In this document: positions 21,651-49,077 of the stretch, one piece after another
Position numbering within the stretch: the stretch's first letter is position 1
Layout: every line of letters begins with the position of its first letter
Translations under genes and position numbers: made by a program
Assembly (NCBI RefSeq): GCF_014205255.1
Contig: NZ_JACHNE010000001.1
Location: 62,001 to 126,000, forward strand
Reading direction: 5' to 3'
Source: Streptomyces caelestis
GTDB taxonomy: Bacteria; Actinomycetota; Actinomycetes; Streptomycetales; Streptomycetaceae
DNA length: 64,000 bases
The notes under the pieces: model-generated
Told to the model about the DNA's origin: nothing
Databases searched by the model: none
Seen by the model: only the letters and a program-made list of their open reading frames with translations

Positions 21651-21772
21651 GTTCGCGGCGGCAAGCATCAGCTCGGCGTCAGAACCGCGTCAGAGCCAGC
21701 TGCAACGATCAAATCCCGGCGCCCCGTTCTCGCGTGCCGGTCAGCACTGGGACCCATCCGGAAAGGTCAACC

Positions 21773-23440
21773 ATGCTCTCGGACGGAACAACAGAGGCGA
21801 CATCCTCCGTACGTTCTGCCTCTTCTGGCCGCGCAGCAGAAGAACGCCAGGCACCCCTGCGCAGTTACAAGCTCTACGTCGCCGGCAAGGACATCGAAGG
21901 TGACGGATGGGTCTACACGGTGAGCGGCAGGTCCCTCCTGGAGGACGTGTTCACCAGCGTGACGCTCAAGCGGACCCTGGAGCAGGACGCCGAATCGGAC
22001 GCGGCCCAGCACCCCTACGTCGTAGGACGCTGCGCGATCGCCGGCGACGACGCCCTGGACCTGGCGAGCGAGGCCGCCGCAGCCGCCGCACCCGGCTGGG
22101 CCGCCTTCCCGCTGGAACGCCGTATGCGTCTGGGCCACCGCTTCCGCGAAGAGCTCGAACGACGCCGGGACGAGTTCATCGAGATGCTGATCGCGGAGGC
22201 CCACCCCGCCAAGCTCGCCCGCTGGGAGCACAGCTCCCTGCTCCAGATATTCAGCGAGGAAAGCCTCGGCTGGTACCAGGAGCAGATGCACACCGAGTTC
22301 CAGCACGGGGACCGCCGGCTGATCGTGCGCCGCCAGCCCGACGGTGTCGTCGCCTTCAATCCCCCGCAGAACGCCCCGCTCCCCAGCGCGGCCCTCGGAG
22401 TGCTGTGCCTCATGTCCGGCAACGCCGTCGTCATGCGCGCCCCGCGCAGCATCGCCCTCAGCACCATGTGGCTGATGCGGGACGTGGTCGCCCCGATCCT
22501 CGACGAGCTGGACGCCCCGCCCGGCACGCTCAACGCCCTGTGTGCCAACCCCAAGCAGACGCTGGACCGCTGGATCGCCAGCCCCCTGATCGACGACATC
22601 TTCTACATCGGGGGCAGCCAGGAGGGCCTGCGCTTCGAGCAGCAGTGCGTCGCGAACGGCAAGAAGGCCATTCTTGAGCTGGCCGGTAACGACAGCGTCG
22701 TCGTCTGGTCCGACGCGGACATCCCCAAGGCCGTCGAGGCCATCACCGAGGCCTTCTACGGCTCGGGCCAGATCTGCATGATCCCCAACGGCGTGCTGGT
22801 GCACCCCGCCGTCGCCGACGAACTGCTGGCCGAGCTCAAGGAGCAGGTCGGGCGGATACGGCCCGGTTATCCGGAAGAGGAGGACGTCCTGCTCTCGCCG
22901 GTCCGGCGCAGCGAGCGGTTCTTCCGCCTCCTCAACCAGGCCCTGGACCAGGGCGGGGAGCTCGTCACCGGCGGGCGCCGCATGGAGGTCGACGGCACCC
23001 CCTCGGACACCGGTGTGTTCCTGCAGCCCACCGTCGTACGGGTCGACGGCCTGGCACGCGCCCGCGAGTTCGACATCGTCCGCGAGGAAACGTTCTTCCC
23101 GCTGATCCCCGTCATCGTCGCCGAATCCGCCGCCGACCAGGAGCTCCTCGCCCGGTTCGTCAACTTCACCAATTCCAACCCCTACGGACTGCGCAACTCG
23201 CTGTGGGCCGAGTCCGAAGACGTCATCGACACCTTCGTACGCCAGGTCACCAACGGCGGACTCCTGAAGATCAACGACTCCCACATGGGGTGCGTCCCCT
23301 ACCTGCCCACACACGGCGGTACCGGCCTGACCGGCGGAGCCTTCGGCGAGGCCAACTACCCGATGCTCAAGACCTCCCACCTGCAGGGCGTGAGCATCGC
23401 CCGCGGCGTCAGCCCCTACGAGGCGGTCTTCGGCGCCTGA
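21773..23440 (+). CDS. Aldehyde dehydrogenase-family enzyme (candidate acyl thioester reductase)
   Basis: A 555-residue ALDH-superfamily protein. The catalytic cysteine lies in SGQICMIPN (about 333) and the general-base glutamate in LELAGND (about 302). FNPPQNAPLPSAAL is the cofactor-domain proline-rich segment. It has an unusual N-terminal extension of about 60 residues compared with short ALDHs. ATG 21773 follows AAAGG. As first gene of the cluster, followed by a flavoprotein and an aminotransferase, it may reduce a fatty acyl thioester to the aldehyde that the aminotransferase converts to an amine. Oxidation in the opposite direction cannot be excluded. Confidence 0.8.
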   Translation: MLSDGTTEATSSVRSASSGRAAEERQAPLRSYKLYVAGKDIEGDGWVYTVSGRSLLEDVFTSVTLKRTLEQDAESDAAQHPYVVGRCAIAGDDALDLASEAAAAAAPGWAAFPLERRMRLGHRFREELERRRDEFIEMLIAEAHPAKLARWEHSSLLQIFSEESLGWYQEQMHTEFQHGDRRLIVRRQPDGVVAFNPPQNAPLPSAALGVLCLMSGNAVVMRAPRSIALSTMWLMRDVVAPILDELDAPPGTLNALCANPKQTLDRWIASPLIDDIFYIGGSQEGLRFEQQCVANGKKAILELAGNDSVVVWSDADIPKAVEAITEAFYGSGQICMIPNGVLVHPAVADELLAELKEQVGRIRPGYPEEEDVLLSPVRRSERFFRLLNQALDQGGELVTGGRRMEVDGTPSDTGVFLQPTVVRVDGLARAREFDIVREETFFPLIPVIVAESAADQELLARFVNFTNSNPYGLRNSLWAESEDVIDTFVRQVTNGGLLKINDSHMGCVPYLPTHGGTGLTGGAFGEANYPMLKTSHLQGVSIARGVSPYEAVFGA

Positions 23441-23476
23441 GCGCCCTGCCCACTCCCTCTCCCACCGGAGGTAACC

Positions 23477-24616
23477 GTGCGCTCCCTCGACCGAGCCCGC
23501 ACCGTCTGCGAGCACTACCACCCGGGACTCCTCAAAGCCCTGGAGGAGATCCCCTTCGACGAACGGGAGAAGCCCGGTAGCACCGCCATCGACCTCTTCC
23601 GCGCCCACGGCGGCGTCGGACTGCTCATCCCCGCCGAGTTCGGCGGCAGCGGGGCGTCCCCCTTGGAGGCCGTCCGCGTACAGGAAGCCCTGGGCGCGGT
23701 GGCACCGTCGCTGGCCGCCGCCACGACCATGCACCACTTCACCGCCGCCATGCTCTACGCACTGGCCGACCAGCAGGACAGACTGACGCCCGCCCAGGTG
23801 GACCTCCTGCACCGGATCGTGCCCGAGCAGAAGCTCATGGCCTCCGGCTGGGCCGAGGGACGCACCCAGCAGAACATCCTCGCCCCGACCGTGGCTGCGG
23901 TGCCCGCCGAGGGCGGATACCGCCTGCAGGGCTCCAAGAAGCCCTGCAGCCTCTCGTCCTCGATGGACCTGTTGACGGCCAGCATCTCCGTGCCCGGCGC
24001 CGACGGCGCCCCCGAGCTCGCTCTCGCGATCGTGCCAGCGGACTCGCCCGGCCTGAGCGTGCACCCCTTCTGGGGCACCGACCTGCTGGCCGGGGCCGAG
24101 AGCGACGAGGTCCGTCTGGAGGACGTGTTCGTACCGGACGAACTGGTGGTACGGACCTCCGCCGACGACCCGACCAGGCTGGACGACCTGCAGACGGCCG
24201 GGTTCATCTGGTTCGTCCTGCTCATCTCCGCCGGATACACGGGAGCCACCGCCGCCCTCGTCGAAGAGGTGGTCACGCGCGAGCGGGGCAACCCCACCGA
24301 ACGCGCGGCCCTCTCGATCAGCCACGAGGCGGCCGTCGCCCTGCTCGAAGGCGCCGCGCGCGCCGTGCAGGGCGGAGTCGAAGGCGAGGAGGCGGTGGCC
24401 GGTGCCCTGATCGCCCGCTACACCGTCCAGGACGCCCTGGTTGCCAACGCCAACCGGGCGCTGGAACTTCTCGGCGGCATGGACTTCATCAAGGGGTCCC
24501 CGAATGCCAGGCTCGCCGCTTCCGTGCGCCCTCTGGCCTTCCACCCGCCGGCCCGGCCCGCCGCGGCCGAACCGCTCCTGCGCTACTTCGGCGGCGGACC
24601 CCTTGAGCTGGCCTGA
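23477..24616 (+). CDS. Acyl-CoA dehydrogenase-fold flavin monooxygenase (VlmH-like amine N-hydroxylase candidate)
   Basis: A 379-residue protein with the ACAD fold: N-terminal helical domain (LIPAEFGGSGASPLEAVRVQ), middle beta domain (GYRLQGSKKPCSLSSSMDLL) and C-terminal helices (LELLGGMDFIKGSPNARLAA). It lacks an obvious glutamate base for beta-oxidation. FMN-dependent amine N-hydroxylases such as isobutylamine N-hydroxylase VlmH belong to this fold and need a separate flavin reductase; one is encoded at 27062. GTG 23477 follows CGGAGG. Proposed reaction: alkylamine to alkylhydroxylamine. Confidence 0.75.
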   Translation: MRSLDRARTVCEHYHPGLLKALEEIPFDEREKPGSTAIDLFRAHGGVGLLIPAEFGGSGASPLEAVRVQEALGAVAPSLAAATTMHHFTAAMLYALADQQDRLTPAQVDLLHRIVPEQKLMASGWAEGRTQQNILAPTVAAVPAEGGYRLQGSKKPCSLSSSMDLLTASISVPGADGAPELALAIVPADSPGLSVHPFWGTDLLAGAESDEVRLEDVFVPDELVVRTSADDPTRLDDLQTAGFIWFVLLISAGYTGATAALVEEVVTRERGNPTERAALSISHEAAVALLEGAARAVQGGVEGEEAVAGALIARYTVQDALVANANRALELLGGMDFIKGSPNARLAASVRPLAFHPPARPAAAEPLLRYFGGGPLELA

Positions 24617-24700
24617 GGCGCGTCGCGGCGTCCTCGCCCCGGCCGCTGCCGGCCCCCGCGAATCCTGCTCCAGCCCCGCACCACTTGGGAGTGACAACTC

Positions 24701-25999
24701 GTGACCGTGATCCAGGAAGTCCGGCCCGGCGCTGCGGCGCCGAGCACGGAGGGCGAGATCCTCCGGCTCTACCGGACCCACCTCAGCAAAGGCCGGGCAA
24801 CGCTCGCCGAGCTCTTCGGCAGCCACATGGAAGTGGAGTCCTCCGGAGCCTGGCTGACCACCAGCGACGGCGAGCGCTTCCTCAACGCGGGCGGCTACGG
24901 GGTCTTCATCATGGGCGCCCGCCACCCCCGGGTTGTGGAGGCCGTTCAGCGCCAGCTGCACACCCACCCCGCGGCGACCCGCATCCTCCTCGAGCCGACC
25001 GCCGCCCGCGCCGCCGAGGCACTCGTGTCGGTCATGCCCGAGGGCCTGGACCGCGTGCACTTCGCCCTGTCGGGCTCCGAGGCCGTGGAAACCGGTCTCA
25101 AGCTCGCCCGTGCCAACGGCTTCAAGCGGACCGTCTCGATGCGCGGCGGCTACCACGGCAAGACCCTCGGCGCACTGTCCGCCACCGCCAAGGAGGTCTA
25201 CCAGCAGCCCTTCCGGCCGCTCGTACCCGACTTCCTCCACCTGCCGTTCGGCGACGCGGACGCGCTGGAGGCCGAGCTCGCGGCCCATCCCGGCGAGGTC
25301 TGCGTCATCCTCGAACCCGTCCAGGGCGAGGGCGGCGTGATCATCCCGCCGAAGGGCTACCTCAAGCGCGTCGAGAAACTGGTCCGCGAGTACGAGGGGT
25401 TCCTCATCCTCGATGAGATCCAGTCCGGCCTCGGCCGGCTCGGCGAGTGGTGGGGCGCGGACATCGAAGGCGTCGTCCCCGACGTCATGCTGACGGGCAA
25501 GGCCCTGGGCGGCGGTGTACTGCCGGTCTCCGCCGCGGTCGCCACCCGCAAGGCGTTCCGCCCCTTCGACAAGGACCCCTTCCTCCACACCGCGACGTTC
25601 TCGGGGCAGCCGCTGCTCATGGCCGCCGTCCAGGCGTCCATCGAGACGATCAAGGAAGAGCGGCTCGTCACCAAGGCCGTCGACCTCGGCAGCGCCCTGC
25701 TGCCCAAGCTCACCGAGATCGCCCGCCGCAACATCCCCGACCAGCTGGTGGAGGTACGCGGCCGCGGCCTGCTGATCGGCGTCGAGCTGGTCGAGGCCGG
25801 GCTCGCCGGGGAGCTGCTGATCGAGCTGTTCAACCACGGCATCGTCGCCAACCACTCGATGAACGGCAGTGCGGTGGTGCGCTTCACGCCGCCGGCCACC
25901 CTGACCGACACCGAAGTGCAGTTTCTCCTCGATTCCTTCGACAAGGCCACCCGTGACCTCATACGGGGCGCGGCCACGATGCCGGAAGGCGGTAACTGA
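24701..25999 (+). CDS. Class III PLP aminotransferase
   Basis: A 432-residue aminotransferase of the acetylornithine/GABA type. The PLP lysine is in MLTGKALGGGVLPVSA (about 267). Other motifs are FALSGSEAVETGLKLA (phosphate-binding glycine/serine), SMRGGYHGKTLG and LILDEIQSGLGR (the Asp that contacts the pyridine nitrogen). GTG 24701 follows GGGAGTG. In this cluster it plausibly aminates the aldehyde made by the ALDH-like protein to a primary alkylamine, replacing the valine decarboxylase route of valanimycin. Amino donor unknown. Confidence 0.88.
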   Translation: MTVIQEVRPGAAAPSTEGEILRLYRTHLSKGRATLAELFGSHMEVESSGAWLTTSDGERFLNAGGYGVFIMGARHPRVVEAVQRQLHTHPAATRILLEPTAARAAEALVSVMPEGLDRVHFALSGSEAVETGLKLARANGFKRTVSMRGGYHGKTLGALSATAKEVYQQPFRPLVPDFLHLPFGDADALEAELAAHPGEVCVILEPVQGEGGVIIPPKGYLKRVEKLVREYEGFLILDEIQSGLGRLGEWWGADIEGVVPDVMLTGKALGGGVLPVSAAVATRKAFRPFDKDPFLHTATFSGQPLLMAAVQASIETIKEERLVTKAVDLGSALLPKLTEIARRNIPDQLVEVRGRGLLIGVELVEAGLAGELLIELFNHGIVANHSMNGSAVVRFTPPATLTDTEVQFLLDSFDKATRDLIRGAATMPEGGN

Positions 26000-26001
26000 C
26001 C

Positions 26002-26490
26002 GTGCGACACGTAGAACTCAAGGTCCTGGTTCCCTCCCAGGACGCCCGGACCGTCTTCGATTCGGTCATCAAGTGGGAGAAGTACCCCGACCTGGCACCC
26101 CACGTGCACACCACCACCGTGCACAGCACGCTGCCGGCCGCCGAGTGCAGTTCGAGCTGGCAACTGCACTTCCGCAGCGGTCTGCTGGGCTGGACCGAGA
26201 AGGACGAGTTCTCCGTCCAGGACCTGACCGCCCGCTTCGAGCAGACCGACGGCGACTTCGACAGCTTCGTCGGCCTGTGGACGCTGCGCCAGGACGGCGC
26301 GGACGTCATCGTCGACTTCGAGGCCGACTTCGACTTCGGCATTCCGAGCCTCGAGGGGATCCTCGACCCCATCGCCGAGCGCGTCATCAAGGAGAGCGTG
26401 GCCTGGGCCGTGACCGGCCTGTTCCCCGGCTCCAAGCTGCTCGGCGACGCCAACCTCAGCGACGCCCGCCCAGAGAACGTCGCGGCATGA
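26002..26490 (+). CDS. SRPBCC (START-like) protein
   Basis: A 162-residue helix-grip protein of the polyketide cyclase/Coq10 class: it begins MRHVELKVLVPSQDARTVFD, with KWEKYPDLAPHV typical of the family, and ends in the long C-terminal helix ERVIKESVAWAVTGLF. It starts 2 bp after the aminotransferase stop. Such proteins bind hydrophobic ligands or catalyse cyclisation; in an acyl-chain pathway a carrier or cyclase-like role is possible but not shown. Confidence 0.78.
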   Translation: MRHVELKVLVPSQDARTVFDSVIKWEKYPDLAPHVHTTTVHSTLPAAECSSSWQLHFRSGLLGWTEKDEFSVQDLTARFEQTDGDFDSFVGLWTLRQDGADVIVDFEADFDFGIPSLEGILDPIAERVIKESVAWAVTGLFPGSKLLGDANLSDARPENVAA

Positions 26491-26516
26491 CCCGCTGCCC
26501 CGACAGGAGCTGAACC

Positions 26517-27065
26517 GTGGATCAGGCCAATCCGTTCGAGACCCCGCGTACCTACTCGCTCCACCGGGCCGAGTACCTCGTCGGCCTGGCCGTCACCACC
26601 GGTCTGATCATCGCCCATCTGGGCGACATCCGATGGGTGCCGGCCGTCGTGCTGTTCCTCTACATCGATGTGATCGGGTACATCCCCGGCGCCATCGCCT
26701 TCCGGCGAAGCGGCGGCCGCCCGATATCCAAGGCGTACTACGTGCTCTACAACGTGATGCACAGCCTCATCACCCAGGCCGCGGTCGTGGCCCTGTGGTG
26801 CTGGCTGATCGGGCCGGAGTGGGCGCTGCTGGTGATTCCCTTCCATCTCTTCGGTGACCGGGGTCTGTTCGGCAACTTCATGAAGTCCTTCGCCCTGCCC
26901 TTCGAGCCGGTGCGTCAGCCCGGCTACCTGAGACTTCTGGACGACCTCGGCATCAAGCACCCCAAGCCCGTGGGCCACGCCCTCGACCCGGTGCCCGTAG
27001 GACACGTCCCCGTCGCGCGGACCTCCGCCCGCAGCGAGCTCATCCCTCAGGAGGAGTCACGATGA
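26517..27065 (+). CDS. Small polytopic membrane protein (possible VlmO-type partner)
   Basis: A 182-residue protein with about four transmembrane segments (LVGLAVTTGLIIAHLG, VLFLYIDVIGYIPGAI, AAVVALWCWLIGPEWALLVI). Several histidines lie near the membrane (HRAEY, HSLITQ, FHLFGDRG). GTG 26517 follows CAGGAG; the stop overlaps the next ATG by 4 bp. The valanimycin cluster also encodes an integral membrane protein (VlmO) beside its oxidative enzymes, so an analogous role with the nearby diiron protein is possible. Homology has not been tested. Confidence 0.6.
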   Translation: MDQANPFETPRTYSLHRAEYLVGLAVTTGLIIAHLGDIRWVPAVVLFLYIDVIGYIPGAIAFRRSGGRPISKAYYVLYNVMHSLITQAAVVALWCWLIGPEWALLVIPFHLFGDRGLFGNFMKSFALPFEPVRQPGYLRLLDDLGIKHPKPVGHALDPVPVGHVPVARTSARSELIPQEESR

Positions 27066-27652
27066 GCACCGCGCTCCGCCCGCGCACCGGGCTGTCGGCC
27101 GGGCACCGTACTCCCGACGGACGCCTGCGCCGGCGCAGGGCCCTGTACCACCTCACCGCCCCGGTGGCCGTGCTGACCGTCAGCCACGGAGGGATACTCC
27201 ACGGAACCACCGTCAGCACGGTGACCACCGTGTCCCGGGAGCCGCTGCTGCTCGGCACCTGCCTCAGGAGCGGGTCTCAGTTCGCCGAACTGGCCGTGGC
27301 GTCGGGTCGCTACGCGGTCAACGTCCTCACCGGGGCGCAGGCCGATCTGGCCCGGTACTTCGCCGACAGCTCGCGCCCCGGCGGGGCGGACCAGTTCGCC
27401 GGCCTGGGGTGGGAGCCCGACCCGTACGCGCACGCGCCCCTCCTCGAAGGCGCGCTGGCCCACTACACCTGCCGGCTCTACGGCTCGACCGCGCTGGGGG
27501 ACCACGAGGTACTGATCGGCCACGTGACCCACGCCGCCGTCGGTGAGGGCACTCCCCTGCTCAGCTACGCCGGCGGGCTGTTCAGCAGTCCCCTCACCCC
27601 TGTCCGGGACCCCGGGTCGGGCAGTCAAACCAGGAAGGACACCACGACATGA
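27062..27652 (+). CDS. Flavin reductase (HpaC/VlmR type)
   Basis: A 196-residue flavin-reductase-domain protein. It begins with the family segment ALYHLTAPVAVLTVSHGG, followed by GTTVSTVTTVSREPLLLGTC and the C-terminal pattern YRLYGSTALGDHEVLIGHVT (read CRLYGSTALGDHEVLIGHVT). It supplies reduced FMN or FAD to a partner monooxygenase, presumably the ACAD-fold protein at 23477. It overlaps both neighbours by 4 bp (ATGA), so it is translationally coupled in the operon. Confidence 0.85.
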   Translation: MSTALRPRTGLSAGHRTPDGRLRRRRALYHLTAPVAVLTVSHGGILHGTTVSTVTTVSREPLLLGTCLRSGSQFAELAVASGRYAVNVLTGAQADLARYFADSSRPGGADQFAGLGWEPDPYAHAPLLEGALAHYTCRLYGSTALGDHEVLIGHVTHAAVGEGTPLLSYAGGLFSSPLTPVRDPGSGSQTRKDTTT

Positions 27653-28635
27653 CCGAGTTCGTGGCGCCCGAAGCCGACTGGGACAAGGCGCCCGGTCTGC
27701 TCGACGGAGCGAAAGAACTCACCCTCGGGCCCGAGGAGTGCGACCTCTCCTATTGGTTCACCTCCGTAGCCCAAGGAACCCTGCGGGACCGCGGCGACAC
27801 CGGACACCACGCCGACGCCGTCGTTCCCTCCTTCCTCAAGGAGCCCGGCCCGCTGAGGGACGCCCTGACCTTGGAGTTCGGTTTCCGTGCCCTGTCCGAG
27901 GAGATGGCCACCCGCATCCTCGGCCGCTACGTCACCATCGCCCCGGGCATACCGGAGTTGGAGTTCTACGCGACCCAGCTCATCGACGAGGCCCGTCACG
28001 CCCGGGTGTTCCGCAACCACCTCGTCGAACTCGGCCACCCCGCCGGCAGCCTGCTGCGGGACGTGGACGACATGGCCGCCGACTACCGGCGCCGCGTGCT
28101 GGAGCCGGTGAAGGAGTTCACCGACGACATCGTGACCGGGCAGTCCGATTTCATCGGCGGAGTCGCCGTGTTCGCCATCGTCATCGAAGGCGTACTCGCC
28201 CCCGCGGCCGAGCTGAGCGAGCGCAAGTGGACCCCGCTGTCGCCCGCCACCGGAGAGATCTCCCGCGGCACCGCCATCGACGAGATCCGGCACCTGACCG
28301 TGGCCAGCACGATCCTGCGCGACCACGTCGTCAAGCACCCCGAGTACAAGCCGAGGCTGCTGGAGATCCTGCGGGCCGGTGTCCGGCTCTGGGACGAACT
28401 CCCGGACCGCGAGTACGTCCTGCCCCGCGAGGAGATGTTCCAGAAGGGCATGCAGGAGCACGCCGACCTGATCGGCGACTACGAACTGTGGCCCGGCGTG
28501 CGCATGCTGGACACCACCCCCGAGCAGCGCTACGACATGGCCGAGCAGTGGACCGACGAAATGGCCGAGGCCCGCATGGCCTACATGGGCCTCCCCGTCG
28601 ACGTACTGGCCGGCGGCCAGGAGAGCACCGGATGA
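27649..28635 (+). CDS. Ferritin-like diiron oxygenase (AurF/VlmB-type candidate)
   Basis: A 328-residue helical protein with a classical carboxylate-bridged diiron ligand set. ALSEEMAT gives a glutamate at about 84-85, DEARHARVF an ExxH at about 113-116, IVIEGVLAP a glutamate near 181, and AIDEIRHLT a second ExxH at about 210-213. This is the E-ExxH-E-ExxH layout of ribonucleotide-reductase-like N-oxygenases. In an azoxy pathway it could oxidise a hydroxylamine or hydrazine nitrogen. It overlaps both neighbours by 4 bp. Confidence 0.78.
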   Translation: MTEFVAPEADWDKAPGLLDGAKELTLGPEECDLSYWFTSVAQGTLRDRGDTGHHADAVVPSFLKEPGPLRDALTLEFGFRALSEEMATRILGRYVTIAPGIPELEFYATQLIDEARHARVFRNHLVELGHPAGSLLRDVDDMAADYRRRVLEPVKEFTDDIVTGQSDFIGGVAVFAIVIEGVLAPAAELSERKWTPLSPATGEISRGTAIDEIRHLTVASTILRDHVVKHPEYKPRLLEILRAGVRLWDELPDREYVLPREEMFQKGMQEHADLIGDYELWPGVRMLDTTPEQRYDMAEQWTDEMAEARMAYMGLPVDVLAGGQESTG

Positions 28636-29660
28636 CCACCGTCACCCGGCAGGCACCCGCGGGGCGCGCAGCGGTCATCGCGGGCATCGGGTCGTACGTG
28701 CCGCCGGACGTGGTGACCAACCAGGACCTGACCCGGCGGCTCGACACCTCGGACGAGTGGATCCGCAGCCGTACCGGAATCGCCACGCGCCACGTGGTCT
28801 CCGCCGGCACCGCCACCTCCGACCTGGCCGTCGAGGCCGGGCAGCGGGCCCTGAAGTCCGCGGGCAGCGCCGACGTCGACGCGGTGGTACTCGCCACCAC
28901 GACACCGGACCACTCCTGCCCCGCCACCGCACCGGCCGTGGCCGCCCGCCTTGGTTTGACCGGCGTGCCGGCCTTCGACGTAGCGGCCGTGTGCACCGGC
29001 TTCCTCTACGGCCTGGCCTCCGCCTCCGGACTGATAGCGGCGGGCATCGCGGACCGGGTGCTGCTGGTGGCCGCCGATGCCTTCACCACCATCATCAACC
29101 CCGACGACCGCACCACCGCCGTGATCTTCGCCGACGGGGCGGGCGCCGTCGTACTGCGCGCCGGACGCCCGGACGAACCCGGCGCGATAGGGCCCCTGGT
29201 TCTGGGCAGCGACGGCAGTCTCGGCAACCTCATCGAAGTGCCGGCCGGTGGCTCGCGGCAACGCTCCTCGGGCCGGAGCGCCCCCCTGGAGGACCACTAC
29301 TTCCAGATGCGGGGGCGCGACACCTACCGCCACGCGGTCGAACGAATGACCGCGGCCTCCCTGGAGGCGGTGGAGCGCCGCGGATGGACCATGGCCGACA
29401 TCGACCGGTTCGCCGCGCACCAGGCGAACGCCCGCATCCTCACCGCAGTCTCGGACCGGCTGGAGGTCCCGGTCGAGCGGCAGCTGTCCAACATCGAGCA
29501 CGTGGGCAACACCGGCGGTGCCTCGATCCCGTTGCTGCTGTCCCAGGCGGCGCAGGACGGCCGTCTGACCGCCGGACAGAAGGTCCTGCTCACCGCGTTC
29601 GGCGGCGGCCTGGCCTGGGGTGCCACAGCCCTGCACTGGCCCGTCCTCACTCCGTTCTGA
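28632..29660 (+). CDS. Beta-ketoacyl-ACP synthase III (FabH-like)
   Basis: A 342-residue thiolase-fold initiating condensing enzyme. The Cys-His-Asn triad is visible in DVAAVCTGFLYGL (about C119), FAAHQANARI and HVGNTGGAS; the N-terminal segment is IAGIGSYVPPDVVTNQDL. It joins an acyl-CoA starter to malonyl-ACP. ATG 28632 overlaps the diiron gene stop. With the ACP and KAS II downstream it forms a dedicated chain-building set; ketoreductase and dehydratase would have to be borrowed from primary fatty-acid synthesis. Confidence 0.9.
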   Translation: MTTVTRQAPAGRAAVIAGIGSYVPPDVVTNQDLTRRLDTSDEWIRSRTGIATRHVVSAGTATSDLAVEAGQRALKSAGSADVDAVVLATTTPDHSCPATAPAVAARLGLTGVPAFDVAAVCTGFLYGLASASGLIAAGIADRVLLVAADAFTTIINPDDRTTAVIFADGAGAVVLRAGRPDEPGAIGPLVLGSDGSLGNLIEVPAGGSRQRSSGRSAPLEDHYFQMRGRDTYRHAVERMTAASLEAVERRGWTMADIDRFAAHQANARILTAVSDRLEVPVERQLSNIEHVGNTGGASIPLLLSQAAQDGRLTAGQKVLLTAFGGGLAWGATALHWPVLTPF

Positions 29661-29737
29661 GGACCCGCCGCCACCCTGCAGCCCGTAGAACGCAGCGACA
29701 TCCACGCGCAGCCCTGCGCACGACGGAAGGAATATCC

Positions 29738-29968
29738 ATGTTCGAGAAGTTCAAGAGCCTCCTCGTCGACAAGCTGAAGGTCTCGCCCGAGCTCGTCACG
29801 CCCGAAGCCACCCGGGAGGAGATCGAACTCGACTCCCTGGCCGTCGTGGAGTTGTCCCTGTTGCTCGAGTCCGAGCTGGGCCTCACCATCAGCGACGACG
29901 AGCTGCTGGAAGCGCCCACCGTCGGCGACATGGTGGCGCTCATGGAGCAGCGGGGCGCGAAGGTCTGA
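29738..29968 (+). CDS. Acyl carrier protein
   Basis: A 76-residue ACP. The phosphopantetheine serine is S33 in ELDSLAVVE, within a standard four-helix sequence (MFEKFKSLLVDKLKVSPELV at the start, SDDELLEAPTVGDMVALME at the end). GGAAGGAA precedes ATG 29738. Its stop TGA and the KAS II ATG share one base. It is probably the carrier on which the dedicated acyl chain is built and from which the ALDH-like enzyme releases it. Confidence 0.92.
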   Translation: MFEKFKSLLVDKLKVSPELVTPEATREEIELDSLAVVELSLLLESELGLTISDDELLEAPTVGDMVALMEQRGAKV

Positions 29969-31188
29969 TGGCAGGCATCGATGTTGCCGTCACCGGTGTC
30001 GGCCTCGTTACCCCCGCCGGCATCGGGGTGGAGCCGAGCTGGGCGACGGTCCGCTCAGGGCGCTCCACAGCCGCGTTCGATCCCATGCTGGAGTCGAACC
30101 CTGTGAAGATCTCGTGCCGCGTTCCCGGGTTCGATGCCGATGCCCTGCTGGGAGCCAGGCGTGCCCTGCGCCTGGACCCGTTCGTACAGTTCGCGCTGGT
30201 CGCCGCTCGCGAGGCGCTGGCCGATGCGGGGCTGGATCCGAAGACATGGGACGGCGGACGGGTCGGTGTGGTGCTGGGCAACGGCGACGGGGGACCCACC
30301 ACGGTGGAAGCCCAGCACCGGGTGCTCCTCGCGCAGGGCGCCGGCCGGGTCTCTCCTCTCTTGCTGCCCATGCAGCTGCCCAACATGCTCGCCGGCCAGG
30401 CCGCCATCGAGTTCGGGGCGACCGGCCCCAACCTCGTGGTGGCAACGGCATGCGCCTCCGGCACGACCGCGGTGGGCGTCGCACGCGACCTCCTTGCCCT
30501 CGACCGCTGCGACGTGGTCCTGACCGGCGGCAGCGAGGCCCTGATCACGCCACTGGCGATGGCGGGCTTCGCGCAGATGGGTGCTCTGTCCCAGCGCGAG
30601 GACGACCCCTCCGCCGCCTCGCGTCCCTTCGACGCGGACAGGGACGGGTTCGTCGCCGGTGAGGGCGCCGGCATCCTGGTCCTCGAAAGGCTCCAGGACG
30701 CCTGCGCCCGCGGTGCCCGGGTCCGGGCACGCGTCGTGGGCTACGGGGCGTCCGCCGACGCCCACCACATGACGTCCCCCCACCCGACGGGCGCCGGAAT
30801 CGAGTCGGCCGTACGCGCCGCCCTTCGCGACGCGGGCGCCGGCCGGGGAGACGTGCAGCACGTCAACGCGCACGGCACGTCCACGCCCCTGAACGACCTG
30901 GCCGAGGCCACCATGCTGAAGCGGACCCTGACGGGCGACCCGCTGGTCACCTCCACCAAGGGCGTGACGGGTCACCTTCTGGGAGCCGCAGGGGCCGTAG
31001 AGGCTGTCCTCACCGTCTTGTCGGTGGAACAAGGGCTCGTGCCGCCCACCGCCAACCTGACCACGCTGGACCCCCGCATGGACATCAAGGTCGCCGAGAC
31101 CGAGATGGCCGTGCCCATCGAACTGGCGCTGAGCAACTCCTGCGGCTTCGGCGGACAGAACGCCGTTCTTGCCGTCGCCGCCGCCTGA
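29968..31188 (+). CDS. Beta-ketoacyl-ACP synthase II (FabF-like)
   Basis: A 406-residue elongating condensing enzyme. The catalytic cysteine is in VVATACASGTTAVG (about C162), with histidines in VNAHGTSTPLND and TKGVTGHLLGAAGAVEA. There is no chain-length-factor partner next to it, so it is FabF-like rather than a type II PKS KS-alpha. It starts one base before the end of the ACP stop, which indicates tight coupling. Confidence 0.92.
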   Translation: MAGIDVAVTGVGLVTPAGIGVEPSWATVRSGRSTAAFDPMLESNPVKISCRVPGFDADALLGARRALRLDPFVQFALVAAREALADAGLDPKTWDGGRVGVVLGNGDGGPTTVEAQHRVLLAQGAGRVSPLLLPMQLPNMLAGQAAIEFGATGPNLVVATACASGTTAVGVARDLLALDRCDVVLTGGSEALITPLAMAGFAQMGALSQREDDPSAASRPFDADRDGFVAGEGAGILVLERLQDACARGARVRARVVGYGASADAHHMTSPHPTGAGIESAVRAALRDAGAGRGDVQHVNAHGTSTPLNDLAEATMLKRTLTGDPLVTSTKGVTGHLLGAAGAVEAVLTVLSVEQGLVPPTANLTTLDPRMDIKVAETEMAVPIELALSNSCGFGGQNAVLAVAAA

Positions 31189-31325
31189 CCCGCCGTTGCC
31201 ATCCGGGGCAGCCGACCCGACGCCGGGTCGGCTGCCCCTGCCCGTCCCCCTTGCCGCCCGTCCAGGACGGCGAGGCACGCCTGCGAGCCGATGCCCGGGC
31301 CGCACTGGAACCAAAGGAGATTGCC

Positions 31326-32615
31326 GTGCACGACGCACGCGAGCTCATCGCGCTCGGACCCGAGGCCGTACGGCAACTGGCACGGCGCAACCACGCCCTC
31401 GACCTCGATGCCCTGGAGGCCGCCGGCCGCAGGCGGACGGCCGCCGAAGAACAGGTGAGCCGGCTGCGCGCCGAGCTGAAGGCCGTGGCGCGCACGGGGA
31501 CGGGCACCCGTACCGGTGCCCCGAGCGAGGAGGAACGCGCGGCTGCGCGCGCCCTGCGCGATCGCGTGCAGGACGCCGAAACGGAGGCGCGGGCGGCGAG
31601 TACCGAGCTGAGCCAGTGGCTGCAGACGATCCCCAACCTTCCACTGGACCTCGTACCCGACGGCCGGTCCGAGAAGGAGGCCGTGGAGATCCGCCGGGGC
31701 GGGCCCCCTGTTGTCTCTGCCGGGGGCGCCGTGCCCCACCACGCGGACATCGGCGAGCGCCTCGAACTCTTCGACAGCACGCGCTCCACTCGTCTGTCGG
31801 GCGCCCGGTTCCACGTCAGTCGCGGGGCGGGAGCCCGCCTGGAACGAGCGCTCGCCGCCTTCCTGCTCGACCTGCACACCGAAGAGCACGGCTACACCGA
31901 GTACGCCGTCCCCTTTCTCGTCAACCGCGAGACCATGACGGGCACCGGTCAGCTTCCGAAGTTCGAGGAAGACCTCTTCGCCACGCGGCTCGGCGACCGC
32001 GAGCTCTTCCTCATCCCCACCGCCGAAGTGCCCCTGACGAATCTCGTCGCAGGCGAGATACTCACCTCCGCCGAGCTGCCGCTCGCCCTCACCGCCCACA
32101 CCCCGTGCTTCCGCTCCGAGGCCGGCTCCTACGGCCGCGACACCCGCGGTCTGCTGCGGCTGCACCAGTTCGAAAAGGTGGAACTGGTGCGCATCTGCGC
32201 ACTGGAGGACGCCCCGAGCCAGTTCGACCTGATGGTCGGACACGTCGAGAAGTGCCTGCAGAAGCTCGAGCTGTCCTACCGCGTGATGCTGCTCCCCGCA
32301 GGTGACATGGGCTTCTCCGCACGGATGACGTACGACGTCGAGGTGTGGCTGCCCGGCAGCGGGGCCTTCCGGGAGATCTCCTCCGTCTCGGACTGCGGCG
32401 CCTTCCAGTCCCGCCGGGCGGGCATCCGCCACCGCTCCGGTGCCGGACGAAACGTTCCCGCCGCGACGCTCAACGGGTCTGCCCTGCCGATAGGCCGCAC
32501 GGTGGCAGCTCTCCTCGAACAGGGCGCGCGGCCCGACGGCAGCGTCGTCCTGCCGGACGCCCTCGTCCCCTACACCGGGTTCCAGAGGATCCTGCCTGGA
32601 GGGCGTACCGCCTGA
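31326..32615 (+). CDS. Seryl-tRNA synthetase paralogue (VlmL-like)
   Basis: A 429-residue class II synthetase with a shortened, Arg/Thr-rich N-terminal coiled-coil arm (about 1-100), motif 2 (FRSEAGSYGRDTRGLLRLHQ, then FEKVE) and motif 3 (LNGSALPIGRTVAALLEQ). GTG 31326 follows AAAGGAG at ideal spacing. Its location at the end of a biosynthetic operon, after KAS II, argues for a pathway copy, as VlmL serves in valanimycin formation by charging tRNA used to donate serine. SerRS recognises the long variable arm rather than the anticodon, which is relevant to the tRNA-like genes at 45999-46339. Confidence 0.88.
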   Translation: MHDARELIALGPEAVRQLARRNHALDLDALEAAGRRRTAAEEQVSRLRAELKAVARTGTGTRTGAPSEEERAAARALRDRVQDAETEARAASTELSQWLQTIPNLPLDLVPDGRSEKEAVEIRRGGPPVVSAGGAVPHHADIGERLELFDSTRSTRLSGARFHVSRGAGARLERALAAFLLDLHTEEHGYTEYAVPFLVNRETMTGTGQLPKFEEDLFATRLGDRELFLIPTAEVPLTNLVAGEILTSAELPLALTAHTPCFRSEAGSYGRDTRGLLRLHQFEKVELVRICALEDAPSQFDLMVGHVEKCLQKLELSYRVMLLPAGDMGFSARMTYDVEVWLPGSGAFREISSVSDCGAFQSRRAGIRHRSGAGRNVPAATLNGSALPIGRTVAALLEQGARPDGSVVLPDALVPYTGFQRILPGGRTA

Positions 32616-38540: not shown

Positions 38541-39026
38541 ATGCGTGCAACCAATGACAACAGCCGGCCGCAGGGCGTGTCCCGCCTCGGTCGCGTCGGC
38601 CGTACCGCCCGCGGCCTCATCGTGGCGGCCCTCGCCCTCCCCCTGCTGACCAGCGGTCTGAACACGGGCACCGCCCACGCCGCCACCTGCGTGCTGGAGG
38701 AGAACGTCCTTCAGCAGGACAAGCTTGGCAATGTCTTCCGCACCGACGTCAAGTGCGACAATCTCGCCGGAGACGTTTACGGGCGCGCGTCCTACGACAG
38801 TCCGCTCACCGGAAAGAAGACCTCCACGCTGAGCACCTTCGTGTGCTGGACGCGAGGTCAGCCGCATTCCGGCGGAAACACCGTCTGGTACTACACGAAG
38901 GGTGACACGGCGGTTTCGCCCTTTGAGGCCTTCGAGGGCTGGGGGGCGATGGAGTCCAACAAACTCCTGACCCCGTCCGGCATTTCGCATCCCTTCCCGG
39001 GGCTTCCCCGCTGCCCGTGGTACTGA
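38541..39026 (+). CDS. Small secreted four-Cys protein 2 (cassette B)
   Basis: A 161-residue exported protein starting 12 bp after its neighbour. The signal peptide has a long n-region (to about 28) then LIVAALALPLLTSGLNTG and cleavage near AHAATC. Cysteines are at 50, 72, 102 and 158 (C-x21-C-x29-C-x55-C). Conserved elements are DKLGNVFRTDVKCDNLAGDV, FVCWTRGQPHSGGNTVWYYT, KGDT, GWGAM and PFPGLPRCPWY. The intact counterpart of the degenerate gene at 12432. Probably co-transcribed with both neighbours. Confidence 0.8.
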   Translation: MRATNDNSRPQGVSRLGRVGRTARGLIVAALALPLLTSGLNTGTAHAATCVLEENVLQQDKLGNVFRTDVKCDNLAGDVYGRASYDSPLTGKKTSTLSTFVCWTRGQPHSGGNTVWYYTKGDTAVSPFEAFEGWGAMESNKLLTPSGISHPFPGLPRCPWY

Positions 39027-39046
39027 CAGATCCGGAGAAGTTTTCC

Positions 39047-45811: not shown

Positions 45812-45917
45812 CCATCCAGCATCGTCACACTGCCGTGACCTGCACGCTCTCAAGGTCGCTACGACGTTGCCATCGCCCTGAGGCCCGGCTCGGGCCGGCG
45901 TGCCCGCACACATGATT

Positions 45918-45954
45918 CGCCCTGGCAGACCTGCTCAGCAGGCCTGCCAGGGCG
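45918..45954. terminator. Terminator hairpin after the tRNA-like array
   Basis: CGCCCTGGCAG (45918-45928) pairs perfectly with CTGCCAGGGCG (45944-45954). It lies 44 bp beyond the last tRNA-like unit in the direction of transcription (minus). Confidence 0.7.
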
Positions 45955-45998
45955 GGTCACACGACCAGGGAGCGGGGCCCCCTGGAGACCAAAAGCGC

Positions 45999-46091
45999 GG
46001 AGAGGGCAGGATTCGAACCTGCGCGGGCCCATTGAACCCGACCTTCGAGCCGTAGCTCAGGCCCCCGATAAACCACTCCGGGCACCTCTCC
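45999..46091 (-). tRNA. tRNA-Ser-like gene, copy 3 of 3 (no normal anticodon loop)
   Basis: A 93-nt unit on the minus strand, identical to the other two. Acceptor stem GGAGAGG/CCTCTCC with G73, no encoded CCA; D arm CCCG/CGGG with a GG-containing loop; T arm GCAGG-TTCGAAT-CCTGC; long variable arm GGGTTC-AAT-GGGCCC. These are serine-tRNA hallmarks. The anticodon stem (GGCCT/AGGTC) is closed not by a 7-nt loop but by a hairpin GAGC-TACG-GCTC, a C(UACG)G UNCG-type tetraloop. A CTCGAAG heptamer resembling a Ser(CGA) loop survives but its CTC is paired. It is the last of the array and is followed by TTTT and a hairpin. Confidence 0.8.
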
Positions 46092-46122
46092 AAAACCACC
46101 CGATTACGCGGGCTGATTTCGC

Positions 46123-46215
46123 GGAGAGGGCAGGATTCGAACCTGCGCGGGCCCATTGAACCCGACCTTCGAGCCGTAGCTCAGGCCCCCGATAAACCAC
46201 TCCGGGCACCTCTCC
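46123..46215 (-). tRNA. tRNA-Ser-like gene, copy 2 of 3 (no normal anticodon loop)
   Basis: Identical in all 93 positions to copies 1 and 3. The period is exactly 124 bp and the 31-bp spacers differ at only a few positions (for example AAAACC against AAGACC). Each spacer contains a small CCCG-ATTACG-CGGG hairpin that may be a processing signal. The identity of the units against diverging spacers suggests recent duplication or selection for dosage. Confidence 0.8.
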
Positions 46216-46246
46216 AAGACCACCCGATTACGCGGGCTGGCTTCGC

Positions 46247-46339
46247 GGAGAGGGCAGGATTCGAACCTGCGCGGGCCCATTGAACCCGACCTTCGAGCCG
46301 TAGCTCAGGCCCCCGATAAACCACTCCGGGCACCTCTCC
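46247..46339 (-). tRNA. tRNA-Ser-like gene, copy 1 of 3 (promoter-proximal)
   Basis: First unit of the leftward array, identical to the other two. It begins 175 bp from the divergently transcribed DUF2156 gene (46515). Canonical tertiary-contact positions are kept (GG in the D loop, TTCGAAT in the T loop), so an L-shaped fold is expected. Because seryl-tRNA synthetases read the variable arm and discriminator rather than the anticodon, it should still be chargeable with serine. Decoding is not expected if the hairpin forms. Confidence 0.8.
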
Positions 46340-46514
46340 AAGACCACCCGGTGTCGACCCGGCTGTTCCTGAGAACAACAATGACAGATGCCTCTGATAC
46401 GGACCTGACACGGAGCTGACGTGTCTCCGACATCCCACGAGAACCCCCTTTCGGTGCCGAGCGGTCCGATGCTCTAATTCCATGGGCCCAGCCCCACCGA
46501 GAGGGAGCGCGAAC
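46340..46514. promoter_or_regulatory. Divergent promoter region, tRNA-like array / DUF2156 gene
   Basis: A 175-bp gap from which the array is transcribed leftward and the transferase gene rightward. An interrupted inverted repeat ACACG (46408-46412) / CGTGT (46420-46424) sits mid-way. TCTAAT at about 46474 could be a -10 element for the rightward gene. No copy of the TGACCGACGGTCGG operator is present. Confidence 0.45.
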
Positions 46515-47510
46515 GTGTCCATGATTGAAACGGACAGCCCGATATTCCGGGCCGTCCAGAAGCACAGCCAGGCCGAAAATCCCAGTTCATTTCTCGCGCT
46601 GAACGAGGGCAACGAAACATTCAGCGTCCCTGAGATCGACGGGGTGATCTTCTACCGGCGGGCGGGCCGATACGCCGTTCAGTTCGGCGGCCCCTTTGTC
46701 GAGAAGGCGTCGTACGACGCACTCCTCGAGCGCTTCGTCGCGTACGTTCACGACGAAGGCCTCAGCCTCGTCGGCGTACAGCTCCAGCGTGACGACGCCG
46801 AGGCCTACGCCCGCCAGGGCTTCACGGTCAATCAGATCGGGGCTTCCTGGGCGGTGCGCATACCGGACCTCACACTGCGGGGCACCCGGTTCATGCAGTT
46901 GCGCAACAAGGTCTCCCGAGCGCACCGCAACGGCCTGAAGATCCAGGAGGCCCAGGCGTCGGATTGGCAGGACGGCCTGGCGAGGATCGACCGTGCGTGG
47001 CTCGGGGCGAAGGGCGAAGGCGCCCGCCCCCTGGAGTTCCTGGTGGGCCAGATCGGCGGCACGATGCAGGCCCACCGCCGACTCTTCGTCGGGACCATCG
47101 ACGATGCACCGGTCGCGTACATCTCCTACTCGCCCGTGTACGGCTCGCGCGCCGGCTGGATGCACGACCTGAGCCGGCGCATCCCGGAGGGCTCTCCCGG
47201 GCTGATGGAGGCGATCAACGCCCACGCGCTCGAGGTGTTCCGAGGTGAGGGGGTGGAGTGGCTGCACTTCGGCTTCACGCCCTTCACGGGTCTGGACGCG
47301 GGCCACGAGGTTCCCGGTCACAGTCCGGCGTTCCAGTGGCTGATGCGCTTCCTGTGGGCCGAGGGCTCCGCTCTCTACCCCGCGCAGACACAGCTGGCCT
47401 ACAAGCAGAAGTGGGCTGCCGACGTCCTCATCCCCGAGTACGTCGCCTTCGAGAATCAGGCCTCGCTTGCAGGCTTCGCCCATATCTTCCGCGCCAGCAA
47501 CGCCCTATGA
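46515..47510 (+). CDS. DUF2156 (MprF C-terminal-like) aminoacyl-tRNA-dependent transferase candidate
   Basis: A 331-residue protein of the DUF2156 fold, tandem GNAT-like, as in the C-terminal domain of MprF enzymes that move amino acids from tRNA. Visible segments are VIFYRRAGRYAVQFGGPFVE, FMQLRNKVSRAHRNGLKIQE, LEFLVGQIGGTMQAHRRLFV, DDAPVAYISYSPVYGSRAGW and MHDLSRRIPEGSPGLMEAIN. It lacks the MprF flippase domain, so a soluble acceptor is likely. GTG 46515 follows GAGGGAG. Divergence from the tRNA-Ser-like array and the SerRS paralogue in the nearby cluster suggest that it moves serine from that RNA, possibly to an alkylhydroxylamine as VlmA does in valanimycin formation. Confidence 0.72.
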   Translation: MSMIETDSPIFRAVQKHSQAENPSSFLALNEGNETFSVPEIDGVIFYRRAGRYAVQFGGPFVEKASYDALLERFVAYVHDEGLSLVGVQLQRDDAEAYARQGFTVNQIGASWAVRIPDLTLRGTRFMQLRNKVSRAHRNGLKIQEAQASDWQDGLARIDRAWLGAKGEGARPLEFLVGQIGGTMQAHRRLFVGTIDDAPVAYISYSPVYGSRAGWMHDLSRRIPEGSPGLMEAINAHALEVFRGEGVEWLHFGFTPFTGLDAGHEVPGHSPAFQWLMRFLWAEGSALYPAQTQLAYKQKWAADVLIPEYVAFENQASLAGFAHIFRASNAL

Positions 47511-47721: not shown

Positions 47722-47961
47722 CTCGCGCTGCCCCACCCCAGTCAGCCGGGTATCAGACCCGCATCAGCGCGGTAGGCGAGGCTGGTGGCGCACTGGCTCG
47801 GAACCAGGCGCAACGCACCGCACTGCCATGGCACAAGTGCGGGCAAGGTCACGAAGCCACCTTGTGGCTCCTGCCTCTCACCCTGCGCAGCCACCTGATC
47901 GTGGGACGGCTGCCGTGCCACCGCCTTACCACCGGGTACATCAGCCCAAGGAGTGCACCGT

Positions 47962-49077
47962 ATGTCATCGCCGCACGTCCCTTCCCAGAACGGCGTGGTC
48001 GAGTCGCTCGACGCACACCGCGCGACTCCGGCTCCACAGACCGCAGGAGCCTCCGCAACGTTCTCCGAGCTTCTGAAGCGAGTGAAGGCCGAGGGCTTGC
48101 TGGACTTCGACCCGCGCTACTACACAGGCCGTCTGGCACTCAACACCCTGCTCCTGGCCGCCGGTTTCACGGCGTTCTTCCTGCTCGGCGACTCCTGGTG
48201 GCAGCTGGTTGTGGCCGCGTGGCTGGGCCTGTGCGGGACGCAGAGCGCCTACATGTTCCACGACGCCGGCCACAAGGCGATGTTCCGCGACAAGCGGGTC
48301 GCCACGGCCGTGGGCTACATCCACGCCAACCTGATCAACGGGTCGAGTTATGGATGGTGGGTCAACCACCACAACCGGCACCACAGCAACCCGAACCATC
48401 TGGACATGGACCCCGACATCGGACGCCGCACCGCGATCTTCGATCTCAAGCAGTACGCCAGCCGCCGGGGAGTCAAGCGTTTCATCGTCCGGTACCAGAG
48501 CGTCCTGTTCTTCGTCCTGCTGGTCTTCGAGTCCCTCAAGATGAACAAGACCGCCATCAAGGTGATCTCCCAGGGACAGACCAAGCGCCCGGTACTCGAG
48601 GCTTCGCTCATCGTGCTGCGTGCGGCGATCTACCTGACGCTGGCCTTCACCGTGCTCTCCCCGCTGCTCGCCGTCGTCTTCATCGTCGTCCAGCAGTTCG
48701 TCCAGGGCCTCTACTTCGGCATGATCTTCGCCCCGAACCACAAGGGCATGGAGATCCGCGACGGCGAGGAGGAGACCTTGGACTGGCTGGAGCGCCAGGT
48801 GCTCACCTCGCGCAACATCCGCCCTTCTCGGATCATCGACTTCATGTACGGCGGTCTCAACTACCAGGTCGAGCACCACCTCTTTCCCTCGATGGCGCAG
48901 AAGAACCTGCCCCGTGCCCGGGAGTTGACCCGCGAGTACTGCGCGGAGCGAGGCGTTCCCTATCACGAGGTGGGCTTCTGGGCCTCGTACCGCGAGGTGG
49001 CCGGCTTCCTCCACGAGGTGAGCGCACCCGTGCGCCGGGGCGAGGTCGAGCAGACGCTGGAGCGGCGCGCCGCCTGA
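47962..49077 (+). CDS. Membrane fatty-acid desaturase
   Basis: A 371-residue membrane diiron desaturase. The three histidine boxes are HDAGHKAMF, WWVNHHNRHHSNPNH and QVEHHLFP, in correct order, with four hydrophobic segments (for example ALNTLLLAAGFTAFFLLG). ATG 47962 lies 8 nt after AAGGAG; a GTG at 47953 is less well placed. It introduces a double bond into an acyl chain, bound to lipid, CoA or ACP. Its position next to the proposed transferase suggests that it tailors the chain of the natural product, but a role in membrane lipids is possible. Confidence 0.85.
   Translation: MSSPHVPSQNGVVESLDAHRATPAPQTAGASATFSELLKRVKAEGLLDFDPRYYTGRLALNTLLLAAGFTAFFLLGDSWWQLVVAAWLGLCGTQSAYMFHDAGHKAMFRDKRVATAVGYIHANLINGSSYGWWVNHHNRHHSNPNHLDMDPDIGRRTAIFDLKQYASRRGVKRFIVRYQSVLFFVLLVFESLKMNKTAIKVISQGQTKRPVLEASLIVLRAAIYLTLAFTVLSPLLAVVFIVVQQFVQGLYFGMIFAPNHKGMEIRDGEEETLDWLERQVLTSRNIRPSRIIDFMYGGLNYQVEHHLFPSMAQKNLPRARELTREYCAERGVPYHEVGFWASYREVAGFLHEVSAPVRRGEVEQTLERRAA

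Follow-up and report, generated by a model that had tools for sequence, protein, structure and literature searches.

Three tRNA-Ser-shaped genes with a predicted closed hairpin in place of the anticodon loop stand in tandem in the window, the 64,000-nucleotide stretch of Streptomyces caelestis DNA analysed here. The question raised by this locus is what such RNAs are used for. We consider it very likely that the array provides a private, tRNA-Ser-shaped seryl carrier for the probable azoxy cluster of the same window and does not serve translation. The basis of this reading is the anatomy of the RNA, covariation, gene linkage, genome co-occurrence and promoter repeats.

An anticodon-less tRNA-Ser-like RNA and its family

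The array consists of three identical units with a period of 124 nt (2.9 copies with 98% matches by a tandem-repeat measure). The original prediction had described units of 93 nt; the same coordinates were recovered, and G73 brings the length to 94 nt. In the host genome (8.94 Mb, a single contig) the array is located at approximately 108 kb and its sequence is present exactly three times.

46246..46339, minus strand: anticodon-less tRNA-Ser-like gene, copy 1 (promoter-proximal), including the discriminator G (G73 at 46246)
46122..46215, minus strand: identical gene, copy 2 (G73 at 46122)
45998..46091, minus strand: identical gene, copy 3 (G73 at 45998)

As predicted, a normal 7-bp acceptor stem, 4-bp D stem (11-nt loop), 5-bp T stem, long variable arm and discriminator G73 can be read in each unit. 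These are the body parts of an ordinary, decoding class II tRNA-Ser, from which the array family differs in lacking the anticodon arm with a 5-bp stem, a 7-nt loop and a serine anticodon. At this position, the stem GGCCU/AGGUC of the array unit is capped by GAGC-UACG-GCUC. The minimum-energy fold was a cloverleaf of four arms that contains precisely this hairpin and has shifted D-arm pairs (−45.4 kcal/mol, z −2.23, 7 of 200 shuffles equally good, ensemble frequency 0.09), while a separate RNAfold run favoured a rod (−44.6). For the modelled cloverleaf one sequence is not decisive and the family decides; the family folds agree with the closed hairpin that had been proposed for the anticodon position.

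ARAGORN reported exactly these three genes at the array, each as an unassigned tRNA (tRNA-???) whose anticodon is read as the 4-nt ‘agct’. It gave no tmRNA there, and the 94-nt unit contains no insert between its halves. The array had no Rfam match at the gathering score; an identity as tRNA-Sec was rejected, as its 27.6 bits lie below that score. Applied to relatives, ARAGORN returned Asn, Ser, Leu, Cys, Val, Asp, Ala, Arg, Ile, His, Glu, undefined or nothing, hence eleven amino acids, with two further ones in a second analysis. These inconsistent or missing calls may be a reason why the family went unnoticed.

A DNA search of 392 genomes of the genus gave matches, full-length or partial, in 58. 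From 66 full-length places (one place appears in two collections, as L080 and as L116) we obtained 57 distinct full-length relatives, window included, and 129 distinct ones once named loci and diverged members had been added; they come from Streptomyces and other actinobacteria. Before the 129-member analysis, five of the 106 covariance model matches had been dropped: two containing runs of N, two truncated at a contig end and one tRNA-Cys. Covariance model R1 separates the family (at least 62 bits) from ordinary tRNA-Ser within the genus: the next matches reached at most 57.1 bits, and the best two of these were tRNA-Ser(UGA).

In the alignment of the 57 relatives, GGAGAGG...CCTCTCC-G, the D stem CCCG/CGGG and the T stem GCAGG/CCTGC are nearly invariant, and the anticodon arm varies in both length and letters. 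Among 41 aligned members, acceptor, D and T stems are paired in 100% of the cells and invariant save for one compensated pair. Pairing reaches 89.6% in the lower anticodon stem and 99.4% in the variable stem, and two-sided changes were found at four pairs. When the segment between D and T stems was folded separately, the loop of the first hairpin was predicted to have 3–5 nt in 120 of the 129 members (3 nt in 27, 4 in 65, 5 in 28, 6 in 4, 7 in 2, 8 in 2 and 10 in 1). GNRA and UNCG loops, 17 each, account for 34 of the 65 tetraloops. Nine of the 129 members could combine an intact 5-bp stem with a 7-nt loop; a single one of them (L114, 16982-17069) has U33, and its best fold nevertheless has a 5-nt loop. 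A member at L169 (position 4444) has a 7-nt loop and lacks U33. In an exchange of 3′ halves among 109 unique anticodon arms (300 swaps), the mean energy was −9.52 kcal/mol for native arms versus −5.83 (SD 0.21) after the exchange, the best swap reaching −6.53. As the arm is variable yet paired, and swaps weaken the pairing, it looks in these predicted folds to be selected as a closed hairpin of any sequence.

The gene cluster in the window

The array is flanked by a divergent gene for a VlmA-like transferase, and an azoxy operon is located 13–25 kb away; both had been absent from the original prediction. The genes of interest are as follows.

21734..23440, plus strand: aldehyde dehydrogenase family protein, presumed to act in amine supply
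23477..24616, plus strand: acyl-CoA dehydrogenase-fold flavoprotein, putative VlmH-like amine N-hydroxylase
24701..25999, plus strand: class III aminotransferase, presumed to act in amine supply
26002..26490, plus strand: SRPBCC/polyketide cyclase-like protein
26517..27065, plus strand: hypothetical protein, tentatively assigned by position to the place of VlmO
27062..27652, plus strand: flavin reductase, putatively VlmR-like
27649..28635, plus strand: VlmB-like protein (80% to a protein annotated as VlmB-like; weak AurF match under its cut-off)
28665..29642, plus strand: beta-ketoacyl-ACP synthase III-like coding stretch
29738..29965, plus strand: acyl carrier protein-like coding stretch
29968..31188, plus strand: beta-ketoacyl synthase
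31251..32615, plus strand: second seryl-tRNA synthetase (SerRS), VlmL-type, 38% identical to the other SerRS of the genome
32718..33713, minus strand: SARP-type regulator (Trans_reg_C and BTAD)
46482..47510, plus strand: VlmA-like transferase (LPG_synthase_C/DUF2156; LPG_synthase_C E 1.3e-64), divergent from the array; an in-frame GTG at 46515 is a possible true start
47953..49077, plus strand: fatty acid desaturase-like protein, in relatives often beside the VlmA-like gene

The region 21734-32615 shares synteny with a plasmid cluster annotated in Streptomyces sp. NBC_01267, which contains a ‘VlmB-like protein’ and serS, and there the RNA likewise adjoins a DUF2156 (VlmA-like) gene. The window thus combines, in the manner of valanimycin clusters, a VlmA-like transferase with a VlmH-like oxygenase, a VlmR-like reductase and a VlmB-like protein, assignments made by Pfam family and by synteny with the annotated cluster. 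LPG_synthase_C is the family used for modelling VlmA, according to passages of PMC9379638, and aminoacyl-tRNA-dependent phosphatidylglycerol synthases were among the solved-structure matches of a profile built from 19 VlmA-like proteins. The protein in the VlmO position (182 residues, 80% to the syntenic protein of NZ_CP108456) has no Pfam match and is tentatively linked to VlmO by its place. The DAGK and MmgE proteins of NZ_CP108456, taken for the VlmJ/VlmK pair, had no match in the window, and valanimycin itself is therefore not the expected product. From its gene content, the window cluster is probably an azoxy-type, valanimycin-like biosynthetic cluster. The second SerRS scored 392 bits against TIGR00414 (cut-off 302) and aligns to solved SerRS along the catalytic core. 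Three large FG-GAP repeat proteins (850–863 residues) are encoded around the cluster region (window 13023-18162 and 39017-41608).

Association of the RNA with VlmA-type genes, SerRS and promoter repeats

Of 80 named VlmA-like loci, 62 have the RNA in the DNA that was fetched; at 54 of these it is divergent and at most 700 nt from the tblastn match (median 169). It was absent from the fetched DNA of the other 18. When 48 RNA loci were compared (window included; one place is present twice), the RNA adjoined a VlmA-like gene at 17, and at the remaining 31 no such gene was present in the surrounding DNA, mostly 10 kb on each side. These 31 unlinked loci seemed to be counterexamples and are explained by whole-genome searches. 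In the 392 genomes of the genus, the RNA (at least 62 bits) was found in 51 and a VlmA homologue (E ≤ 1e-40) in 80: both occur in 49, RNA alone in two, VlmA alone in 31 and neither in 310 (Fisher P = 1.8e-38, uncorrected for relatedness of the genomes). Both RNA-only genomes (G167 and G299) encode an LPG_synthase_C protein, 33–35% identical, 2.2–2.3 kb from the RNA, and its surroundings code for a DAGK/YegS-type protein, a class III aminotransferase and a SARP. Together with these two diverged cases, a VlmA-type gene is therefore present in 51 of 51 RNA-bearing genomes. Conversely, all 29 genomes with a VlmA of at least 485 bits carry the RNA.

Among the 31 VlmA-positive genomes without the RNA, 10 have a VlmA match of at most 43% identity, which, judged by sequence, may not be VlmA. 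At L155, L156 and L157 (genomes G073, G086 and G336), VlmA is 57–62% identical and resides in azoxy-like clusters, and neither the RNA nor a VlmL-type SerRS was found in these whole genomes. In gene content they look like true azoxy clusters without the RNA, so that the RNA seems dispensable for some pathways of this kind; the three loci are probably natural ‘without’ controls. At L166 and L167, where the order is VlmO-position gene, VlmA, VlmH, the RNA is absent; our guess is that they are of the azodyrecin (alanyl) type. At L164, L170 and L171, three VlmA loci in genomes that do carry the RNA, no copy lies alongside and the RNA is found elsewhere in the genome.

In a VlmA tree of 97 rows (quick method, L153 and L154 as outgroup), the RNA occurs from the deepest branch, formed by these two loci, through to the clade of the window. 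Its presence changes 13 times versus 20.9 in shuffles, the RNA state referring to whole genomes in some rows and to fetched DNA in others, with losses over-counted. The outgroup loci (L153, 8161-13280; L154, 8937-13178) contain a diverged VlmA-like gene (33–35% to that of the window), a DAGK/YegS (VlmJ-like) gene, a class III aminotransferase, a SARP and a tRNA-like gene, and possibly represent another seryl-transfer pathway.

A search for SerRS paralogues accompanying the RNA, suggested with the original prediction, was carried out on 80 genomes. A VlmL-type SerRS (at least 470 bits) occurs in 29 of the 51 RNA-bearing genomes versus none of the 29 RNA-lacking ones, the latter comprising 21 with VlmA (at least 49%) and 8 others (0 of 21 and 0 of 8). 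In this sample an intact VlmL-type SerRS implies the RNA, and the RNA does not require the SerRS. Since 22 of the 51 have no VlmL-type enzyme, a dedicated SerRS is not obligatory, and the housekeeping SerRS would serve there. A genome with VlmA and no RNA (G079, 78% complete) encodes an 86-residue piece that is 66% identical to VlmL-type SerRS (C1, 6567577-6567834) and possibly is a remnant of the lost pair. In G372, an extra SerRS of housekeeping type (C38, 196-1711) starts approximately 180 nt from a tRNA-like gene, an apparent independent recruitment.

The array also shares upstream repeats with the cluster. SARP sites are heptameric direct repeats, classically spaced at 11 bp, and triple-repeat sites for VlmI are located upstream of vlmJ and of vlmA-vlmH, as stated in sections of PMC10972967. 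Repeats of this kind, heptameric and with an 11-nt period, were found upstream of the array, and in the window the triple repeat is confined to three places.

46394..46419, minus strand: three TCAG-centred direct repeats of SARP-box type, 11-nt period, directed toward the array
47742..47767, plus strand: the same triple repeat, upstream of the desaturase gene
21668..21693, plus strand: the same triple repeat, upstream of the azoxy operon

In 22 intergenic sequences, TCAG-centred repeats with an 11-nt period, mostly three, are directed toward the RNA, followed in most by a CTGNCA box. The simpler pattern TCAG-N7-TCAG has nine matches in the window versus 1.45 expected. Of the arrays at named loci, 65 of 66 have it within the 140 nt upstream, as do 18 of 18 in class A (RNA beside a VlmA-like gene), 31 of 34 in class B (no VlmA-like gene in the surrounding DNA) and 9 of 10 among diverged or other arrays, compared with 200 of 20,000 random 140-mers from the same loci (1%). 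These sets partly overlap; arrays with less than 60 nt upstream, repeated upstream stretches and later tandem copies were dropped. In the 200 nt upstream of genes, on the coding strand, the pattern was found for 0 of 79 VlmA-like and 0 of 35 SerRS genes, and for 17 of 33 aldehyde dehydrogenase, 30 of 55 desaturase, 7 of 38 VlmH and 6 of 31 aminotransferase genes. Its absence from the VlmA coding strand and its presence at unlinked copies indicate that the repeats belong to the RNA. The SARP encoded at 32718-33713 is a candidate activator of the array and of the cluster operons. A scan of 45850-46560 for sigma-70-type promoters and terminators found none.

Among 374 genomes of the class, scores of at least 62 bits were reached in G000, G516 and G654 (own genus) and in G653 (another family). 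The next matches were below 59 bits, and the best eight that became loci are tRNA-Ser by ARAGORN. At named loci, the RNA is also present in Kitasatospora, Actinacidiphila, Salinispora, Micromonospora and Microbispora. No convincing RNA was found at VlmA-like loci on Paraburkholderia (44%) and Embleya (40%) replicons, nor any in the DNA fetched for the Actinokineospora loci L247 and L250. On a Streptomyces lavendulae plasmid, the RNA is located 8 kb from the VlmA-like gene. Full-length relatives occur in 10 Streptomyces plasmid records. Plasmids pSGRIFU1 (NZ_CP051007) and pSCO1 (NC_022001) carry a tRNA-like gene with SARP-type repeats and no VlmA-like gene within 15 kb; the VlmA-like gene of S. 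griseofuscus is chromosomal (L244). Dispersed copies with differing hairpins, on chromosome and plasmids, gave at least 10 matches in each of four genomes (G003, G281, G326 and G364) and eight each in G387 and G033, numbers that exceed what an obvious donor role asks for. The only shared neighbours of unlinked copies were MFS transporters, at most 3 kb from the RNA at 6 of 31 class B loci. A phage origin was rejected: 288 phage records matched, and in none did coverage of the query reach 80%, with 44% as the highest value among the 20 listed.

Proposed function, alternatives and known systems

SerRS recognises the variable arm, the acceptor and G73 and ignores the anticodon. VlmA chemistry consists of serine transfer from seryl-tRNA to a hydroxylamine, followed by N–N bond formation and oxidation. 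In the scheme that we infer for expression, charging, transfer, ribosome exclusion and product identity, the SARP activator (candidate 32718-33713) would switch on the array along with the cluster operons, and the transcripts would be processed and receive CCA. The RNA would then be serylated by a SerRS, here probably the VlmL-type paralogue, which may accept it because SerRS ignores the anticodon. As VlmA uses seryl-tRNA (parts of PMC12945691 and PMC9379638), the VlmA-like transferase would move the serine to the N-hydroxylated amine supplied by the VlmH/VlmR-like pair, the VlmO- and VlmB-like proteins would convert the ester into the N–N azoxy group, and the bare RNA would go back for recharging. 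Lacking an anticodon loop, the RNA would presumably not decode once charged, and ribosomes could not drain the serine pool of the pathway. That the RNA is a dedicated seryl donor outside translation had been suggested from the array alone; comparative support comes from the lack of a conserved decodable loop, hairpin covariation, co-occurrence with VlmA and SerRS, and shared SARP-type repeats.

If the RNA were instead an odd tRNA-Ser that still decodes, either an 8-nt loop would read the four-base codon AGCU or a Ser(CGA)-type loop would be formed. ARAGORN reads ‘agct’ in three of three copies, and the sequence does contain CTCGAAG, over which the original prediction had preferred the hairpin. 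This preference holds: neither the AGCU nor the CGA reading is kept in the relatives, for which reason we rejected both, the competing hairpin covaries, and a full arm with 5 bp, 7 nt and U33 is possible in just 1 of 129 members. The host moreover has ordinary tRNA-Ser with the four anticodons GCU, UGA, CGA and GGA, so that the array is unneeded for decoding; we regard this explanation as highly improbable. Hardly any more credible are dead tRNA copies or integration-site remnants on accessory DNA such as plasmids and chromosome arms, even though ten plasmid records hold full-length copies, the window lies 62–126 kb from the contig end and many copies are unlinked to the cluster. The bodies are full-length and their stems compensated. 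In the genus sample the RNA is confined to genomes with a VlmA-type gene, and unlinked copies retain the promoter repeats, two findings on which att-site debris was rejected as well.

Two alternatives accept a role in the pathway. A tRNA mimic with a regulatory task, acting for instance by binding to SerRS or VlmA or as a reporter of serine or charging status rather than as a donor, would make co-occurrence with the cluster and SARP-type repeats equally expected, and the many dispersed copies suit a titrating RNA. A sponge, however, needs no chargeable 3′ end, whereas acceptor end, G73 and T arm are constant nearly letter for letter, and the family of the VlmA-like partner has solved members that are aminoacyl-tRNA-dependent transferases. 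We consider such a mimic unlikely, albeit the least unlikely of the alternatives. Less probable still is a dedicated donor of another amino acid, or for a cluster step other than VlmA-type O-seryl transfer. Such a donor would fit with the azodyrecin pathway, for which passages of PMC9379638 propose alanyl-tRNA. Against it stand G73 with the class II arm, a GGAG acceptor start common to three of four host tRNA-Ser and to none of the host Leu and Tyr class II tRNAs examined, and a SerRS beside the RNA, SerRS being the only synthetase type searched. Taking the private seryl carrier as the preferred reading, we think it likely that actinobacteria possess a class of tRNA outside the genetic code, which has a closed arbitrary hairpin and dispersed genes under SARP promoters and delivers serine from a private pool solely to VlmA-type N–N enzymes.

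The valanimycin enzyme VlmA was reportedly connected with seryl-tRNA and the extra SerRS VlmL by Garg et al. in 2008. Descriptions of the pathway in parts of PMC12945691 and PMC9379638 likewise comprise VlmA, seryl-tRNA and VlmL. The window resembles it in the VlmA-like transferase, the extra SerRS, the VlmH-, VlmR- and VlmB-like genes and a SARP with triple heptamer repeats. It is set apart, as far as these partial descriptions go (seryl-tRNA made via VlmL; for azodyrecin, alanyl-tRNA from the cellular pool), by its cluster-borne tRNA. In the part of the open-licence PMC literature that was covered, neither a cluster-borne tRNA nor one without an anticodon was found for azoxy compounds or any other natural product. 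The kind of pathway is already known; the apparently new part is a family of anticodon-less tRNAs proposed to serve biosynthesis.

The peptidoglycan tRNA-Gly isoacceptor of Staphylococcus aureus has an anticodon. Specialised for peptidoglycan according to portions of PMC4810233, it is similar to the array RNA, as interpreted here, in being reserved for biosynthesis with little ribosomal use; the array RNA differs in that its anticodon loop is gone and in its tie to a secondary-metabolite cluster and the regulator type of that cluster. Allo-tRNAs, as characterized in excerpts of PMC7609411, combine tRNA-Ser identity elements with 8/4 or 9/3 acceptor/T arms and readable unusual anticodons. The identity elements are shared by the array RNA, which has no anticodon; the allo-tRNA geometry was not found, 7/5 suiting all 41 aligned members. 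A chargeable tRNA-shaped end without an anticodon, which the array RNA would share, is described for tmRNA in parts of PMC2481249 and PMC3985003; unlike tmRNA, the array RNA has no coding part or tag, possesses a class II Ser body and is tied to a biosynthetic transferase.

We know of no counterpart to an anticodon-less tRNA family serving biosynthesis. Because tRNA finders assign these genes to many amino acids or miss them, they also carry a warning for annotation. The RNA provides a marker for mining genomes for azoxy clusters and a scaffold for orthogonal aminoacyl transfer. If our reading is true, the family would show, as a natural experiment, which features of a tRNA a synthetase still needs when decoding has been removed. 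Antibiotic pathways that depend on aminoacyl-tRNA are thought to use the common tRNA pool of the cell; a non-decoding tRNA, inherited with the pathway and wired to its regulator type, would answer how such a pathway avoids competition with the ribosome.
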